Shown piece after piece: positions 41,358 through 49,302 of a DNA stretch of 64,000 bases (the stretch's first letter is position 1; each line of letters starts with the position of its first letter). The position numbers and the translations under genes were made by a program. The stretch spans positions 1,240,001 to 1,304,000 of the forward strand of contig NC_019936.1 in assembly GCF_000327065.1 (NCBI RefSeq). Reading direction: 5' to 3'. This DNA comes from Stutzerimonas stutzeri RCH2 (lineage in GTDB: Bacteria; Pseudomonadota; Gammaproteobacteria; Pseudomonadales; Pseudomonadaceae). The notes under the pieces are model-generated. The model was not told the origin of the DNA. It did no database searches and worked only from the letters and a program-made list of their open reading frames with translations.

Positions 41358-42248
41358 TTACTCCTTGCGGATCGAGAAGTTGGCCATGTGCTCCAGGCCC
41401 TTGATCAGTGCCGAGTGGTCCCAGCCGCTGCCGCCGATGGCTGCGCAGGTGCTGAACACCTGCTGGGCGTTGGCGGTATTGGGCAGGTTCAGGCCCAGCT
41501 CGCGGGCGCCAGCCAACGCCAGGTTGAGGTCCTTCTGGTGCAGGCTGATGCGGAAGCCCGGATCGAAGGTGCCCTTGATCATGCGTTCACCGTGCACCTC
41601 GAGGATCTTCGAGCCGGCGAAGCCGCCCATCAGCGCCTCGCGCACCTTGGCCGGGTCGGCACCGTTGCGTGCGGCGAACAGCAGGGCTTCGGCCACCGCC
41701 TGGATGTTCAGCGCGACGATGATCTGGTTAGCCACCTTGGCGGTCTGGCCGTCGCCGTTGCCGCCGACCAGGGTGATGTTCTTGCCCATCGCCTGGAACA
41801 GCGGCAGGGCGCGGGCGAAGCTTTCTTCGCTGCCGCCGACCATGATCGACAGCGTTGCGGCCTTGGCGCCGACTTCACCGCCCGATACCGGTGCGTCGAG
41901 GTACTGGGCGCCGGTGGCGTTGATTTTCTCGGCAAAGGTCTTGGTGGCGCTGGGTGAGATCGAGCTCATGTCGATCACCAGCTTGTTCGGGCCAACACCT
42001 TCGGCGATGCCGTTTTCGCGGAACAGCACGTCCTCGACATGCGGAGTGTCCGGGACCATGACGATGATGAACTCGGCTTCCTGGGCGACTTCCTTCGGGT
42101 TGGCCAGGGCGACTGCACCGGCCTCGATCAAAGCTGCCGGAGCGGCGTCGTGATGCGTGGACAGAAAGATGTCGTGGCCTGCCTTCTGCAGGTTCTGAGC
42201 CATGGGTAAGCCCATGATGCCGGTGCCGATAAATCCGATCTTAGCCAT
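41358..42248 (-). CDS. glxR: Tartronate semialdehyde reductase (2-hydroxy-3-oxopropionate reductase)
   Basis: A 296-residue beta-hydroxyacid dehydrogenase. The NAD(P) loop is GFIGTGIMGLPMAQNL, the substrate motif is APVSGGEVGAKAATL, and the catalytic Lys lies in NGDGQTAKVANQI. It reduces tartronate semialdehyde to D-glycerate. It sits between hyi (33 bases upstream) and the glycerate kinase, in pathway order after Gcl. GGAGATTACTC precedes the ATG. Confidence 0.95.
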   Translation of the reverse strand: MAKIGFIGTGIMGLPMAQNLQKAGHDIFLSTHHDAAPAALIEAGAVALANPKEVAQEAEFIIVMVPDTPHVEDVLFRENGIAEGVGPNKLVIDMSSISPSATKTFAEKINATGAQYLDAPVSGGEVGAKAATLSIMVGGSEESFARALPLFQAMGKNITLVGGNGDGQTAKVANQIIVALNIQAVAEALLFAARNGADPAKVREALMGGFAGSKILEVHGERMIKGTFDPGFRISLHQKDLNLALAGARELGLNLPNTANAQQVFSTCAAIGGSGWDHSALIKGLEHMANFSIRKE

Positions 42249-42280
42249 GAGTAATCTCCTTCAATTCGATTCAGTTCGGG

Positions 42281-43063
42281 TCAGATGGCGTTGTGGCTCT
42301 TCAGCCAGCCAAGGCCTGCTTCGGTGGTGGTGGCCGGCTTGTACTCGCAGCCGACCCAGCCTTGGTAGCCGATACGGTCCAGGTGCTCGAACAGGAAGTG
42401 GTAGTTGATCTCGCCGGTGCCCGGTTCGTTACGGCCTGGGTTGTCGGCCAGCTGGATATGGTTGATCGCGTCCAGGTTGGCTTCGATGGTCCGCGCCAGG
42501 TCTCCCTCCATGATCTGCATGTGGTAGACGTCGTACTGCAGGAACAGGTTGGGGTGACCGACCTTGCCGCGGATCTCCTGCGCCTGGGAGGTGTTGTTGA
42601 GGAAAAAGCGCGGGATGTCGCGGGTGTTGATCATCTCCATCACCAGGCGGATGCCAGCCTCTTCGAGCTTCTGCGCGGCATAGCGCAGGTTCTCGATAAA
42701 GGTCATTTCCAGCTCGCCGAGATCGGCGCCACGCGGGGCGATGCCGGCCAGGCAGTTGACCTGGGTATTGCCGAGCACCTTGGCATAGGCGATGGCCTGG
42801 TCGACGCCGGCGCGGAACTCCTCGACCCGCTCCGGCAGGATGGCGATACCGCGCTCACCGCTTGCCCAGTCGCCGGCCGGCAGGTTGAACAGCACCTGGG
42901 TCAGCTTGTTGGCGTCCAGCCGGGCCTTGATCTCCTCGGCCGGGTAGTCGTAGGGGAACAGGTATTCGACTCCGGTAAAGCCGGCTGCGGCAGCGGCGGC
43001 GAAGCGATCGGTGAAGTCCTGCTCGGTGAACAGCATCGACAGGTTGGCGGCAAAGCGGGGCAT
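42281..43063 (-). CDS. hyi: Hydroxypyruvate isomerase
   Basis: A 260-residue TIM-barrel protein beginning MPRFAANLSMLFTEQDF, with metal-binding and catalytic segments (LVMEMINTRDIPRFFLN, LQYDVYHMQIMEGDL, GWVGCEYKPA). It interconverts hydroxypyruvate and tartronate semialdehyde, next to Gcl and GlxR. CAGGAGAGAGAACC precedes the ATG. Confidence 0.95.
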   Translation of the reverse strand: MPRFAANLSMLFTEQDFTDRFAAAAAAGFTGVEYLFPYDYPAEEIKARLDANKLTQVLFNLPAGDWASGERGIAILPERVEEFRAGVDQAIAYAKVLGNTQVNCLAGIAPRGADLGELEMTFIENLRYAAQKLEEAGIRLVMEMINTRDIPRFFLNNTSQAQEIRGKVGHPNLFLQYDVYHMQIMEGDLARTIEANLDAINHIQLADNPGRNEPGTGEINYHFLFEHLDRIGYQGWVGCEYKPATTTEAGLGWLKSHNAI

Positions 43064-43143
43064 GGTTCTCTCTCCTGATCTGTAGGGATCAAATTCGGTT
43101 CTGCATTACGGTGGTGTGGTGACCACCCTGGGTGTTGCGTTGC

Positions 43144-43237
43144 GGTGGATATGCTTCGCGATACCCACCCTACGGTTGCACTGCACTGCACTGCACTGGC
43201 GTGGCGTAGGGTGGAAAACCGCGAAGCGTTTTCCACG
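43144..43237. repeat. REP-like inverted pair (BIME) with GCACT pentamer repeat
   Basis: Two hairpins in opposite orientation lie in the hyi-gcl gap: GGTGGATATGC...ACCCACCCTACG (43144-43174) and CGTAGGGTGGAAAACCGCGAAGCGTTTTCCACG (43205-43237). The second has a perfect 9-bp stem GTGGAAAAC / GTTTTCCAC. Between them a TGCACTGCACTGCACTGCACTG run gives four GCACT units (43177-43198). The layout is that of pseudomonad REP/BIME elements. Confidence 0.7.
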
Positions 43238-43251
43238 CGTGTGGGTGATGC

Positions 43252-45033
<1,782 letters not shown>

Positions 45034-45059
45034 TGTTCTTCCTCCTGATTCTTGGAATC

Positions 45060-45178
45060 ACGATCTGCTGCGCGTCGGCCCTGCTGCGTTAAAACCAGGC
45101 TCGGAATGCTCATTTGCACCAGCAAACTCCGCTTCCTCGCCTGCTTTTGCCTTGCAGGTCTCTAGCTCGCTAGATCGT
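45060..45178. repeat. 119-bp imperfect palindromic intergenic element
   Basis: Bounded by ACGATCT and AGATCGT (perfect 7-bp terminal inverts). The centre is TTTGCACCAGCAAA, flanked by imperfectly mirrored CCAGGCTCGGAATG and CTTCCTCGCCTG. It resembles, from memory, a dispersed ERIC-like intergenic palindrome of pseudomonads. It fills much of the gap between gcl and the divergent LysR gene. Confidence 0.6.
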
Positions 45179-45285
45179 GGCTGTCTTTTTATTCGATAGT
45201 TTTTCTACGTGGATCAAGCATGCCGCCCTGGATTCGCAGGCGGAATTGGCCGAGACTTCAGTTCTGTCGATATCAGGAGTATCGA

Positions 45286-46194
45286 ATGGATCGTTACACG
45301 ACCCTGCGCAGCTTCGTGCTGGTGGCCGATTGCGGCAGCTTCGCCGCGGCTGCGCACAAGGAAAACGTCACTCCAGTGGTGATGGGGCGGCGGCTGGATG
45401 CGCTGGAGCGGCACCTGGGTGTGAAGCTGATGCACCGCTCGACGCGCGGGCTGTCATTGACCGATCTGGGCGAGCAGTATCTGGAGCGCGCCCGTGGGCT
45501 GCTGAAGGATTTCGACGAGGTGGATGCCAGCATCAGCCACGACCGCACTTCGGTGCGTGGCCATCTGGTGGTATCGGCGCCGGCAGCATTCGGGCGGCGA
45601 CATATCGGCCCGCACGCGCCGGCATTCCAGGCGCGTTATCCCGACCTGCAACTGTCGTTCAACTTCACCGACAGCGTGGTCGATCTGGTGCGCCACGGCT
45701 ATGACATGGGCATTCGCATCGGCGAGGTGACCGACCCCAACTACGTGGCGGTGCGGCTGTTTCCGAACAGGCGGGTGGTCTGCGGTTCGCCGGAATATTT
45801 CGCCCGCCACGGCACGCCGACGGCATTGGAGGAGCTGACCGAGCACAACTGCCTGGCCTTCAACCTGCAGGGCGGCCAGCAGCGTGGCTGGACCTTCCTG
45901 CGTGACGGCAGGCAGGTGGCGATCCGCGTGGCCGGCAATCTGGACTGCAATGACGGTGAGCTGCTGTTCGACTGGGTCAAGCAGGGGCTGGGCATCGGCT
46001 GGCGCTCGACCTGGGAGATCCAGGCCGAGCTCAAGCGCGGCGAGCTGGTCACGGTACTCGACGAGTACGCGCTGCCGGCCTACGACATCCAGGCGGTGTA
46101 CCCGCAGCAGCGCTACCTGCCGGCCAAGGTGCGTTTCTTCATCGACTACCTGAAGGACATCTACAACGCACCGGGCTATTGGGAAGTGCGCTGA
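45286..46194 (+). CDS. LysR-type regulator, divergent from gcl
   Basis: A 302-residue LysR regulator starting MDRYTTLRSFVLVADCGSFA, with a helix-turn-helix in the first 60 residues and a substrate-binding domain (YDMGIRIGEVTDPNYVAVRL). It is divergent from gcl across a 252-base gap, so it is the natural candidate to control the glyoxylate-to-pyruvate operon. The inducer is not known. ATG 45286 has CAGGAG seven bases upstream. Confidence 0.88.
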   Translation: MDRYTTLRSFVLVADCGSFAAAAHKENVTPVVMGRRLDALERHLGVKLMHRSTRGLSLTDLGEQYLERARGLLKDFDEVDASISHDRTSVRGHLVVSAPAAFGRRHIGPHAPAFQARYPDLQLSFNFTDSVVDLVRHGYDMGIRIGEVTDPNYVAVRLFPNRRVVCGSPEYFARHGTPTALEELTEHNCLAFNLQGGQQRGWTFLRDGRQVAIRVAGNLDCNDGELLFDWVKQGLGIGWRSTWEIQAELKRGELVTVLDEYALPAYDIQAVYPQQRYLPAKVRFFIDYLKDIYNAPGYWEVR

Positions 46195-46199
46195 GCGGC

Positions 46200-46610
46200 T
46201 CAGTTGCCGCGGTAGGTGGAGAAGCCGTAAGGGCTCAGCAGCAGCGGGATGTGATAGTGCTCGACGCTGCCATCGGCTTCGAAGATCACTGGAACTTCGG
46301 GGAAAAAGGTGCTGGCCTTGTGCGCGGCGAACCAGTCGCCGGTCTTGAAGGTGACGCGGTAGGTACCTTTTTCCAGCGCCTTGCCTTCGGGGTACAGCGC
46401 GGTGATGCGGCCCTGGGCGTTGGTCTCGCCACTGTTGAGTGATTTCCAGCTGTCGCCCTGGCGCTGTTCCAGGGTGACACGGACGTCCGGCGAAGGCAGG
46501 CCGTCTTGCAGATTCAGCACATGCACGCTGAGGGGGTTGCCAGCGGCCAGGGACAGACCGGACAGGCCGCTGAGCATCAAACCGGCGGCGATGGAACGTA
46601 ATGCTTTCAT
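46200..46610 (-). CDS. hiuH: Periplasmic hydroxyisourate hydrolase (HiuH/transthyretin-like)
   Basis: A 136-residue exported protein (signal KALRSIAAGLMLSGLSGLSLA) of the transthyretin-related HIUase family. It keeps the catalytic His in LSVHVLNLQDG, the Arg in QGRITAL, the His in EHYHIPLLLSPYG and the C-terminal YRG motif (YRGN here, usually YRGS). It strongly resembles E. coli HiuH, which is also periplasmic and sits next to HprRS. It hydrolyses 5-hydroxyisourate; its physiological role in the periplasm is not settled. It starts 16 bases after the HbpS-like gene in a two-gene unit. Confidence 0.85.
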   Translation of the reverse strand: MKALRSIAAGLMLSGLSGLSLAAGNPLSVHVLNLQDGLPSPDVRVTLEQRQGDSWKSLNSGETNAQGRITALYPEGKALEKGTYRVTFKTGDWFAAHKASTFFPEVPVIFEADGSVEHYHIPLLLSPYGFSTYRGN

Positions 46611-46626
46611 GGGGTTTTCCTTTTCT

Positions 46627-47130
46627 TCAGTGGGAGGAGGGCAGCAGTTTTTCGATGGCGGCCATGGCGCAGGCCTCGTCGTTCTTGGCACCGCCGGCGC
46701 CGGCCACGCCGATGGCGCCGATCACCTCGTTGCCGACCTTCAGCGGCACGCCACCGCCGAGCAGCAACAGCTCATCCAGCGTGTTGAGGTTGGCGGCGTC
46801 CGGCGTAGCGGCGGCGCGCTCGGCGAACAGACGGGTCGGGGTCTTGCTCGACAGCGCGGTGTAGGCCTTGCGCTGCGCGGCGAGGGTGTTGTGCGGGCCG
46901 ACGTTGTCGTCCCGGCGCAGGGCAACCAGGTTGCCGCCGCGATCGACCACCGCGACCACCGCCGTGCGGTTTTCCGCGTGGCACTGGTCCAGCGTGGCCT
47001 GGATCAGGCCATCGGCCAGGGCCAGCGAGACGTTCTGCTGGGTTAGCGGTGCCGGTGTGGCGGCGTTGGCGCTCAGGGCCGGGGTAAGTAATGCCAGGGT
47101 CAGCAATGACAGTGTGGCTGCGAGACGCAT
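46627..47130 (-). CDS. Exported GlcG/HbpS (DUF336) haem-binding-like protein
   Basis: A 167-residue protein with a signal peptide (MRLAATLSLLTLALLTPALSANA) and a DUF336 domain (VVAVVDRGGNLVALRRDDN; LLLLGGGVPLKVGNEVIGAIGVAG; CAMAAIEKL). Streptomyces HbpS is an extracellular haem-binding oxidative-stress sensor partner of the SenS-SenR two-component system. Here the gene is divergent from an HprRS-type system and upstream of hiuH in the same unit. AAGGAAACCGAT precedes the ATG. Haem binding is inferred. Confidence 0.82.
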   Translation of the reverse strand: MRLAATLSLLTLALLTPALSANAATPAPLTQQNVSLALADGLIQATLDQCHAENRTAVVAVVDRGGNLVALRRDDNVGPHNTLAAQRKAYTALSSKTPTRLFAERAAATPDAANLNTLDELLLLGGGVPLKVGNEVIGAIGVAGAGGAKNDEACAMAAIEKLLPSSH

Positions 47131-47202
47131 ATCGGTTTCCTTGGGTGACTTGGCTGCGGAGCGCATGGTGCCGATGCCTGCCCGTCAGAACCGTTGCCTG
47201 CG

Positions 47203-47220
47203 CATTACGCTTTTGTAATG
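47203..47220. promoter_or_regulatory. HprR/CusR-type operator between hbpS-hiuH and the two-component genes
   Basis: CATTACGCTTTTGTAATG has perfect 6-bp inverted arms CATTAC / GTAATG with a 6-base spacer, the same arms and spacing I recall for the E. coli HprR/CusR box (CATTACAAAATTGTAATG). It lies 53 bases upstream of the regulator gene and 73 bases upstream of hbpS, able to serve both directions. Confidence 0.75.
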
Positions 47221-47272
47221 GCCGCTTGGTCATCCACTCCCATAACCTATGCGCCATCAGCGAGGTGATCCG

Positions 47273-47947
47273 ATGCGAATTCTGGTGGTGGAGGACGAAG
47301 CCAAGACGGCTGACTACCTCAAGCGCGGGCTGGAGGAATCTGGCTATCGCGTCGAGGTGGCGCGCAACGGCGTCGATGGCAAATACCTGATTGAGGAGGA
47401 GACCTTCGACCTGGTGATCCTCGACGTCATGCTGCCGGGGCTCGACGGCTGGGAGCTGGTACAGGTGGTGCGCAGGCGCTCGGCGCATACGCCGGTGCTG
47501 TTCCTCACCGCGCGCGATGCGGTGGAAGACCGTGTGCGTGGGCTGGAGCTGGGCGCCGACGACTATCTGGTCAAGCCGTTCTCCTACGCCGAGCTGCTGG
47601 CGCGGGTACGCACCCTGCTGCGGCGCGGACCGCCGCGGGAAGTCGAGCGCTTTCAGGTTGCTGATCTTGAGCTGGACCTGTTGCGCCGTCGCGTCAGTCG
47701 CCAGGGCGAACGCATCAGCCTGACCAACAAGGAGTTTGCCTTGCTGCACCTGTTGCTGCTGCGCCAAGGCGAGGTGCTCTCGCGTGCGCAGATCGCCTCG
47801 CAGGTCTGGCAGATGAACTTCGACAGCGACACCAATGTGGTCGACGTGGCGATCCGCCGCCTGCGCGCCAAGGTCGACGACCCCTATCCGCTCAAGCTTA
47901 TCCACACCGTGCGCGGTATGGGCTATGTGCTGGAAGCCGCCACGTGA
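47273..47947 (+). CDS. hprR: Response regulator, HprR/CusR (OmpR) family
   Basis: A 224-residue OmpR-type regulator. The receiver has the Asp/Glu acidic pocket in [20 protein letters not shown], the phospho-Asp in [15 protein letters not shown], and the Lys in [13 protein letters not shown]. The C-terminal winged helix contains [17 protein letters not shown]. The length matches HprR/CusR (about 223-227). It is divergent from hbpS-hiuH across a palindromic operator. HprR is favoured over CusR or CopR because of hiuH and the absence of copper genes, but the symbol is tentative. It overlaps hprS by 4 bases. Confidence 0.82.
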
Positions 47948-49302
47948 GCCTGTTGCCGCGTTCACTCAGCCTGCGCCTGGCGCTGGCCTTCGCCCTGGTG
48001 GCGAGCGTGCTGCTGGGCAGCATCGGCCTGTATCTGTACCGCTCGCTGGAGCGTGAAATCAGTTGGCGTGACGATCAGGCACTACTCGGTCGACTGGGGC
48101 GTATGCAGGCGCTGCTGGACGACAGCGCCAGCATCGAGGCGCTACGGCAACGTCCGCAGCTGTACGAGAACATGCTGGGTAATCGCGACAGCCTGCTCTG
48201 GCTACTCGATGCTCAGGGACGCGCGCTGATCGAGATCAACCCGGCGCGGCTGTCCATTCCGACATTGCCGGCCAGCGCTGCAGCGGAGCTGACCGATACA
48301 GATGGAGCGCGGCTGGCCTGGCGGCGCCTGCCGGGCGAGGCGGGGCTGACCCTGGTCGCCGGGCGCATGCTCGCTGAGCGTGAGCAGATGCTCGCCGCCT
48401 ACCGTGTAAAACTGTGGTGGGCGTTGAGCCTCGGCGCGCTGCTGGCGTCAGTGCTTGGCTGGCTGATCAGTCGGCGCGCCTTGCGTCCGGTGCGCCACCT
48501 GACCCGTCAGGCGCTGGCGATCGACGTGCAGCACCTGCACCTGCGCCTGGACGAATCGGCGATGCCCAGCGAACTCGAGCCGCTGCGTGGGGCGCTGAAC
48601 CAGATGCTCAATCGCTTGGAACAGGGCTTCGCGCGCCTGTCGCGCTTCAGCGAAGACCTTGCCCACGAGATGCGCACACCACTGGGCAATCTCATGGGGC
48701 AGACCCAGCAGCTGTTGCACAAGGACCGCGATGCCTCGGCCTATCACGCGCTGCTGGTGTCGAATCAGGAGGAGTACGAGCGCCTGGCGCGAATGATCGA
48801 CAGCATGCTGTTTCTCGCCCGTGCCGAGCAGCCGGCAACGGCCATCACGCGGCAGGCTTTTTCGCTGCCGGAATTGGTCGAGCAGCTGTGCGAGTACTTC
48901 GAGGGTGTCGCCGAAGAGCGTGGCATCCAGCTGCTCGACGAGACCGAGGGCGAGCTGTTTGGCGATGCCGACCTGATTCGCCGAGCACTGGCAAACCTGC
49001 TGGCCAATGCGCTGCGCTATGGCGCGGGCGACAGCCCTGTGCGCATCGTCAGCGGCTCAGAGGATGGCTGGCGCTGGGTCAGCGTGATCAATCAGGGGTC
49101 GCCGATCGCGGCGGAACAGCTGCCGCGGCTGTTCGACCGCTTCTACCGCTGCGATCCGTCACGCGCGGAACCGGGTGATTCCGGCGGCCTGGGATTGGCC
49201 ATCGTGCGCTCGATCATGCAGCTGCACGGCGGCGAGGTTGATGTGCGTAGCGATTCCCGGCAGACCGAATTCACCCTGCGTTTCGCTGCAACATCAGCCT
49301 GA
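47944..49302 (+). CDS. hprS: Sensor histidine kinase, HprS/CusS family
   Basis: A 452-residue kinase, the same length I recall for E. coli HprS. It has helix 1 at about 11-30, a periplasmic region of about 120 residues, helix 2 near 155-175, HAMP, a DHp H-box ([20 protein letters not shown]) and a catalytic domain (N-box [30 protein letters not shown]). It starts at GTG overlapping the end of the regulator gene. HprS senses H2O2/HOCl, CusS senses copper; the neighbouring hiuH favours the former. Direct sensing residues cannot be read. Confidence 0.85.

Follow-up and report, generated by a model that had tools for sequence, protein, structure and literature searches.

A four-gene unit of a two-component system with HprRS-type sensor residues and operator, an HbpS-like protein and HiuH in Stutzerimonas stutzeri RCH2

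The 64,000-nucleotide stretch of the Stutzerimonas stutzeri RCH2 genome analyzed here (contig NC_019936.1, positions 1,240,001 to 1,304,000 of the forward strand, referred to as the window and numbered from its first letter) contains genes for a response regulator and a sensor histidine kinase, divergent from an hbpS-like gene and from hiuH, which codes for a predicted 5-hydroxyisourate hydrolase (HIUase), with the box CATTAC-N6-GTAATG in the gap between the two pairs (Table 1). The four-gene unit with its box looks like a genuine and conserved form of an established stress-response system that many bacteria share, and we consider it probable that it is an HprRS-type envelope-stress unit, in which an oxidant-sensing kinase and a regulator acting at the box induce hbpS-hiuH as well as their own genes. 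This reading is carried by the layout, the conservation of the operator, the retention of a methionine pair in the kinase together with the loss of the CusS ligands, and the recurrence of the unit. In the proposed mechanism, whose chain from signal to transcription is borrowed from Escherichia coli, the kinase would sense an oxidant in the periplasm by oxidation of Met77 and Met149, with reactive chlorine species or chlorite as the probable signal; the activated kinase would phosphorylate the regulator, which would bind CATTAC-N6-GTAATG and switch on both the hbpS-hiuH operon and the regulator-kinase genes; and the exported HbpS-like protein and HiuH would be the effectors that handle oxidation products.

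Table 1. Features of the four-gene unit; positions are those of the window
Feature	Position	Strand	Basis
hiuH	46200..46610	-	PF00576 (Transthyretin/HIUase) 127 bits; TIGR02962 135 bits, cut-off 87
hbpS-like gene (DUF336/HbpS fold), 167 aa	46627..47130	-	PF03928 116 bits
Operator CATTACGCTTTTGTAATG = CATTAC-N6-GTAATG	47203..47220	.	pattern search and conservation across loci
CATAACCTAT, candidate -10 region of the regulator promoter	47241..47250	+	box-anchored alignment; inferred
Response regulator, OmpR/PhoB type, 224 aa	47273..47947	+	Response_reg and Trans_reg_C; TIGR01387 348 bits
Sensor histidine kinase, 452 aa	47944..49302	+	HAMP, HisKA and HATPase_c; TIGR01386 445 bits

The gene content, strands, regulator and kinase lengths and divergence described in an earlier note, made by a model from the letters of the stretch, are borne out by the coordinates and by Pfam matches. 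The hbpS-like gene, presumably the first gene of an hbpS-hiuH transcription unit, ends 16 nt ahead of the hiuH start, and the regulator and kinase genes overlap by 4 nt. The box sits in the 142-bp gap between hbpS and the regulator gene, and its center is separated from the hbpS start by 81 nt and from the start of the regulator gene by 61 nt. The preferred ATG of hiuH at 46610 gives a product of 136 aa; profile searches were run on a version two codons longer at the N-terminus (138 aa). A signal-peptide-like stretch opens each of the two minus-strand proteins, as judged by eye and in agreement with the note, and both proteins are probably exported. The window's own unit contains no efflux or copper genes; the other loci discussed below were searched without a probe for such genes.

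The E. coli HprRS/hiuH-msrPQ system shares with this unit the divergent layout, an exported HiuH, the arms and spacing of the box, and a kinase of 452 aa that has the methionine pair and lacks the copper ligands of CusS. The note had likened the box to the E. coli HprR/CusR box and had placed E. coli hiuH beside hprRS, and both statements proved correct: the HprR box is given as CATTACAAAATTGTAATG in an excerpt of PMC9302797, and we located this sequence in the hiuH-hprR gap of E. coli K-12. According to the same excerpt, HprR and CusR of E. coli bind the same recognition sequence, hiuH-msrPQ is induced by hypochlorous acid (HOCl) via HprSR, and hiuH is induced by copper via CusSR; chlorite is described in the literature as a further inducer of hiuH-msrPQ. 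The two systems differ in that an hbpS-like gene is found here where E. coli has msrPQ, and in that the kinase has no equivalent of the transmembrane Cys165 of HprS.

The exact pattern CATTACN6GTAATG occurs once in the 4.6-Mb genome, as does a reversed control pattern. Across 56 genomes of the genus it was found in 30, one copy apiece, and 26 of these copies lie at the hbpS-regulator locus; the control pattern was found seven times in total. Of the 28 genus loci with close relatives of both hbpS and the kinase, 26 carry the exact box and two a version with one mismatch. In the family, the inner ATTACN6GTAAT is exact at 45 of the 46 loci that have the full system, the expectation from Markov shuffles being 6.5e-5 per 200-bp region; since these loci share kinship, the occurrences are not independent events. 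None of the 14 fetched family loci without the full system has the exact inner box. The family spacer is commonly (n)AATTT ahead of GTAAT, near the spacer of the E. coli box. About 20 nt beyond the box, on the regulator side, a box-anchored alignment of the window and 44 family regions revealed a CTAGNCT block, the window version of which is the candidate -10 region listed in Table 1. A plain scan of 47100-47300 for the sigma-70 consensus found no promoter, so that the promoter positions are ones that we infer. In some genomes of the genus (e.g., at L009, L020 and L024), box and regulator gene are set apart by additional bases that include a common repeat-like string, and in three Stutzerimonas loci (L186, L189, L193) the regulator gene is about 143 bases farther off.

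In E. coli HprS, two methionines of the periplasmic loop sense HOCl, and a transmembrane cysteine is needed for signal transduction (PMC10151825, excerpt); in CusS, H42, F43 and H176 near the membrane bind Ag(I), which stands in for Cu(I) (PMC10100754, excerpt). The corresponding residues were counted in 102 kinases encoded at hbpS loci (96 distinct), each aligned over 85% or more of the query, i.e., the kinase of the window. This set replaced an earlier 77-row alignment which included three presumed non-orthologues, divergent at all the residues considered, and in which the two methionines were present in 74 and 73 rows, respectively. The methionine matching Met72 of E. coli HprS (Met77 here) is present in 102/102 kinases, and that matching Met153 (Met149 here) in 100/102; among the four loop methionines of E. 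coli HprS (72, 73, 100 and 153), just these two are kept in the unit kinases. The columns of CusS H42, F43 and H176 are occupied by Glu38, Ile39 and Arg146 in the query kinase and by Glu36, Leu37 and Arg150 in E. coli HprS. All 102 unit kinases have Glu in the H42 column and 100 have Arg in the H176 column, and the periplasmic loop of the query contains no His. Ten copper/zinc-type rows were available for comparison, namely CusS, SilS, PcoS, two copper-linked plasmid kinases, the CzcS-like kinase of the same genome and four uncharacterised Stutzerimonas paralogues. His is found at the first ligand column in seven of them and at the second in eight; none has both methionines, and PcoS has the first. 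The retained methionine pair combined with the lost CusS ligands provides a residue-level lead for separating sensors of the oxidant type from those of the metal type, in a subfamily that annotation pipelines label "heavy metal". The kinases of two other loci, L155 on a plasmid of Pantoea SOD02 (no hbpS or hiuH match at the locus) and L269 (genome G002), represent a further subgroup, which keeps the first methionine and the arginine, lacks the CusS His pair and has Thr or Val at the position of the second methionine.

In a kinase tree with QseC as outgroup the long branches met, and the tree was rebuilt without the outgroup (unrooted). In the latter tree, a 99/96 branch separates 24 unit kinases, seven Enterobacterales HprS proteins and the L155 and L269 kinases from the ten copper/zinc-type rows. 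The earlier note had pointed to clustering of the kinase with CusS/CopS copper sensors as one outcome that would speak against its proposal; given the HprS-type residues, and with CusS, SilS, PcoS and the copper-linked rows all across this branch, such clustering with the copper sensors was not observed. The sensor half of the kinase is 28.5% identical to that of HprS vs 20.7% to that of CusS.

Several results weigh against an HprRS-type assignment. Grouping of the unit kinases and HprS as one clade was neither shown nor rejected (p-AU, approximately unbiased test, 0.099), and the same test did not reject a placement of the copper rows and HprS on one side (p-AU 0.21). In the best tree, the unit kinases and the ten copper/zinc-type rows stand together opposite HprS, L155 and L269 (96/79, not starred). 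Over its whole length the kinase shares 32.3% identity with HprS and 33.9% with CusS, its catalytic half is nearer to CusS (41.9% vs 34.5% to HprS), and the regulator is 54% identical to HprR and 58% to CusR. Cys165 of HprS corresponds to Leu161 in the query kinase; this column is Ser in six of the seven Enterobacterales HprS rows. The review excerpt on HprS speaks of two loop methionines, which we take to be Met72 and Met153. Two of the ten metal-type rows, the copper-linked Burkholderia plasmid kinase and the CzcS-like kinase of the same genome, have neither CusS His, so that loss of these residues is no proof against metal sensing. The locus has no match to MsrP or MsrQ; the single relative of E. 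coli MsrP in the genome is encoded elsewhere (G000:C1:1125914), in an 8-kb region in which no box of the class was found. Finally, such a box was not found in four of the 57 complete units of the named-genome scan described below (three Comamonas, one Pandoraea). The kinase is HprS-like in its sensor residues, and whole-length identity does not decide between HprS and CusS. As for the regulator, it falls below the NCBI equivalog cut-off for HprR (295 vs 353 bits; E. coli HprR scores 482 and a Pantoea HprR 396) as well as below that for CusR-type regulators (301 vs 420 bits). On sequence grounds, the comparison with HprRS is sound for the sensor residues and the operator.

Part of this evidence would fit a different explanation, in which a metal-responsive (copper, silver, zinc) system of the CusRS/CopRS/CzcRS type happens to control hbpS-hiuH. 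Besides the affinity of the catalytic half to CusS, the metal-type rows without the CusS His pair and the copper response of E. coli hiuH, it draws on the subfamily assignments: regulator and kinase exceed the cut-offs for the cztR/silR/copR (TIGR01387, 279 bits) and cztS/silS/copS (TIGR01386, 293 bits) subfamilies, respectively, to which E. coli CusRS and plasmid-borne SilRS and PcoRS also belong. The operators of these metal systems are of a related class, with ATGAC...GTCAT at E. coli cusC and in the plasmid silC-silR region and GTGAC...GTCAT at pcoE; the box cannot tell HprR from metal regulators, as its class serves metal systems too. Relaxed-class sites number 18 in the genome of strain RCH2, against five for the control pattern, and the gene surroundings of ten, including the site of this unit, were inspected. 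Two of them (G000:C1:663365 and 663410) lie in a region that we call CzcRS-like on account of its neighboring genes for cation efflux, a MerR regulator and an OprD porin, and a third (G000:C1:671040) is located ahead of a gene which, by eye, is cation-efflux-like; these sites around the CzcRS-like region (G000:C1:655500-671055) make cross-talk with the regulator of the unit possible. The known metal systems differ from the unit by the His/Met ligands of CusS, by targets that act in efflux or copper binding, and by kinases that stand opposite those of the unit in the tree. With the H42 and H176 positions replaced in at least 100 of the 102 kinases, a query loop free of His, the metal-type rows across the 99/96 branch and neither an efflux nor a copper gene in the unit itself, a metal-responsive system is an alternative which we regard as unlikely.

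The four genes are found together in many other genomes. In the genus, close relatives of hbpS (E <= 2.6e-70) and of the kinase (E <= 8e-182) were detected in one and the same set of 28 genomes out of 56. In the family, kinase, regulator, hbpS and hiuH are arranged as in the window at 46 of 60 fetched loci, which represent 60 of 100 hbpS places outside the genus, chosen mainly among the highest-ranking, with some scattered lower down. A scan of named genomes considered the best 80 of 488 relatives and hence leans to near relatives; all four genes were found at 57 of these 80 loci, in Gamma- and Betaproteobacteria. Complete units are present in Pseudomonas, Stutzerimonas, Halomonas, Kushneria, Marinobacterium, Aeromonas, Iodobacter, Deefgea, Comamonas, Simplicispira, Hydrogenophaga, Polaromonas and Pandoraea, and, with the gene order hiuH-hbpS, in Kosakonia, Enterobacter, Raoultella and Pantoea. 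Of the 57 complete units, 53 are accompanied by a site of the class AT(T/G)ACN6GT(A/C)AT (ATKACN6GTMAT), which has the exact ATTAC form in 38. Fourteen of the 23 incomplete loci belong to Psychrobacter and have hbpS without a match to any other probe. In the wider class, hbpS was detected at E <= 1e-30 in only 21 of 369 genomes, among which the unit was seen only in two genomes of the same genus and one of the same order (L165); the other wider-class loci were examined with 1.5 kb per side.

As the earlier note had remarked, the HbpS partner is foreign to the E. coli arrangement: no hbpS is annotated next to hprRS of strain K-12. However, the partner is a regular member of the unit across Gamma- and Betaproteobacteria, including Enterobacterales, and not a local addition. 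Four-gene units beside an NCBI-named HprR exist in Pantoea; the hprRS/uraH/heme-binding protein locus on a plasmid of Pantoea agglomerans (L157) has the four genes and a box-like site in the shared gap, and differs from the unit of the window in a regulator that passes the HprR cut-off, in the order hiuH-hbpS and in the site, ATGACAATATGGTCAT. These occurrences show the E. coli hprRS-hiuH-msrPQ layout to be a single form of a broader unit, with a protein of the DUF336/HbpS fold as the regular partner of HiuH, and the common operator in many genera makes the roles of exported HiuH and of many DUF336 proteins testable. Our literature searches, in the library covered, returned no description uniting HprRS or hiuH with HbpS or DUF336, and nothing joining hydroxyisourate hydrolase, heme-binding protein, two-component system and Pseudomonas. 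The unit is also present in Stutzerimonas chloritidismutans AW-1 (L196), a chlorate reducer; this occurrence suggests chlorite as a candidate natural signal.

A model of the HbpS-like protein (mean predicted local distance difference test score, pLDDT, 86) matched the structures of HbpS (3fpw/3fpv), NahX and OrfY with Foldseek E values of about 1e-10 and that of EfgA, a DUF336 formaldehyde sensor (PMC8153426, excerpt), with 2e-9. Cys50, His80 and Cys154 are invariant in 57/57 HbpS-like rows, a count that excludes loci L122-L125; L122 and L125 are included in another alignment, in which all three residues are invariant too. The haem role put forward in the note finds no support in the residues. 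In Streptomyces HbpS, Thr113 serves haem binding, and Lys108 and E78xxE81 serve iron binding (PMC3754957, excerpt); according to alignment columns counted by hand, Thr113, Lys108 and Glu78/Glu81 correspond to Leu121, Asn116 and Leu83/Gln86 in the protein of the window. This replacement weakens the haem suggestion, which derives from the family name.

The HbpS-SenS-SenR system of Streptomyces reticuli also raises the question of whether the kinase relies on the HbpS-like protein as a sensory accessory, in a three-component arrangement. In Streptomyces, HbpS controls autophosphorylation of SenS, and SenR activates hbpS, senS and senR (PMC3754957, excerpt). Both systems have an exported (here: probably exported) HbpS-fold protein adjacent to a two-component system and share a redox theme, and the co-occurrence of close hbpS and kinase relatives in the same 28 genus genomes would agree with such a role. 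Unlike its Streptomyces counterpart, however, the protein of the window lacks the haem and iron residues, has HiuH as a partner and gives no sign of a sensory-accessory function. The two genes hbpS and hiuH, moreover, occur together at nine loci at which no kinase was detected in the stretch examined: five loci in one family genus (L116-L120), L114 and L221, where they are divergent, L207, and a Sphingomonas plasmid (L158), where a MAPEG gene lies between them. The 14 Psychrobacter loci have hbpS alone, and three Enterobacterales hbpS genes with neither hprRS nor hiuH nearby (L231, L235, L247) have an ATGACN6GTCAT site directly upstream, so that hbpS itself would seem to be a target. At L231, hbpS is divergent from a BOF (OB-fold) gene. 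The pairing of hbpS with hiuH without a kinase, together with the lone hbpS genes that have a box, favors hbpS as a target with a functional link to HiuH over a permanent accessory of the sensor; we consider an accessory role distinctly improbable, and HbpS as an obligate sensor partner was discarded in view of the loci lacking a detectable kinase and of E. coli K-12, where none is annotated beside hprRS.

HIUases have a catalytic set of His, Arg and His plus a C-terminal YRG(S/T). The motifs HVLN, GR, HYH and YRG are kept in at least 97% of 85 HiuH rows. HiuH of the window retains His, Arg, His and YRG and ends in Asn (YRGN; 46200-46205), where the E. coli protein has Ser; the YRGN ending is found in 28/28 genus rows and 33/56 family rows. 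One might speculate that the HbpS-like protein and HiuH perform a two-step periplasmic detoxification of oxidised-urate products or of reactive carbonyls made by HOCl or chlorite. HiuH would open 5-hydroxyisourate, and the HbpS-like protein would bind or convert a carbonyl or the HiuH product by means of Cys50, His80 and Cys154, which would constitute a second output of HprRS-type systems, alternative to methionine sulfoxide repair by MsrPQ. We regard this proposal as quite unlikely to be correct as it stands.

In one family genus (g15), the regulator also occurs as a receiver of 119-122 aa. A receiver match at E <= 2.5e-50 was obtained in 47 of 398 family genomes. The 30 loci inspected (including L275-L304) are all receiver-only, and the open frames at the remaining 17, of 125-172 aa, do not reach the length of a full regulator; L108, L110, L111 and L113 likewise encode HprR-like receiver-only proteins of 119-122 aa. 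No kinase match was obtained in the stretches examined around the 30 loci. Fourteen of them adjoin hbpS-hiuH, and all 14 have a site of the class, with one arm ATGAC in 12 cases, both arms changed in one and the exact ATTAC form in one. The other 16 have no hbpS or hiuH within 1.5 kb per side, and for this reason we dropped the idea that the receiver-only protein is a leftover found at the hbpS-hiuH locus alone. We likewise abandoned the rule that the box occurs only together with a DNA-binding regulator: it had seemed to follow from the exact ATTAC form (45/46 vs 0/14 loci), yet a class site is present at 14/14 receiver-only hbpS-hiuH loci. Retention of the site without an intact regulator in cis suggests that a trans-acting relative may use it.

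Beside the unit, genes for glyoxylate carboligase (gcl), hydroxypyruvate isomerase and tartronate semialdehyde reductase are located at 41358-45033. Since HiuH belongs to the urate pathway, hiuH and the GlcG/DUF336 protein might be thought to act in urate or glyoxylate breakdown beside the gcl operon, but this is very improbable, as both products look exported and gcl, present at 15 of 18 Stutzerimonas-group loci and absent from 60/60 family loci, does not travel with the unit; the operon was therefore dropped as a functional neighbor. A LysR regulator gene is also next door to the unit, within 41358-46194.

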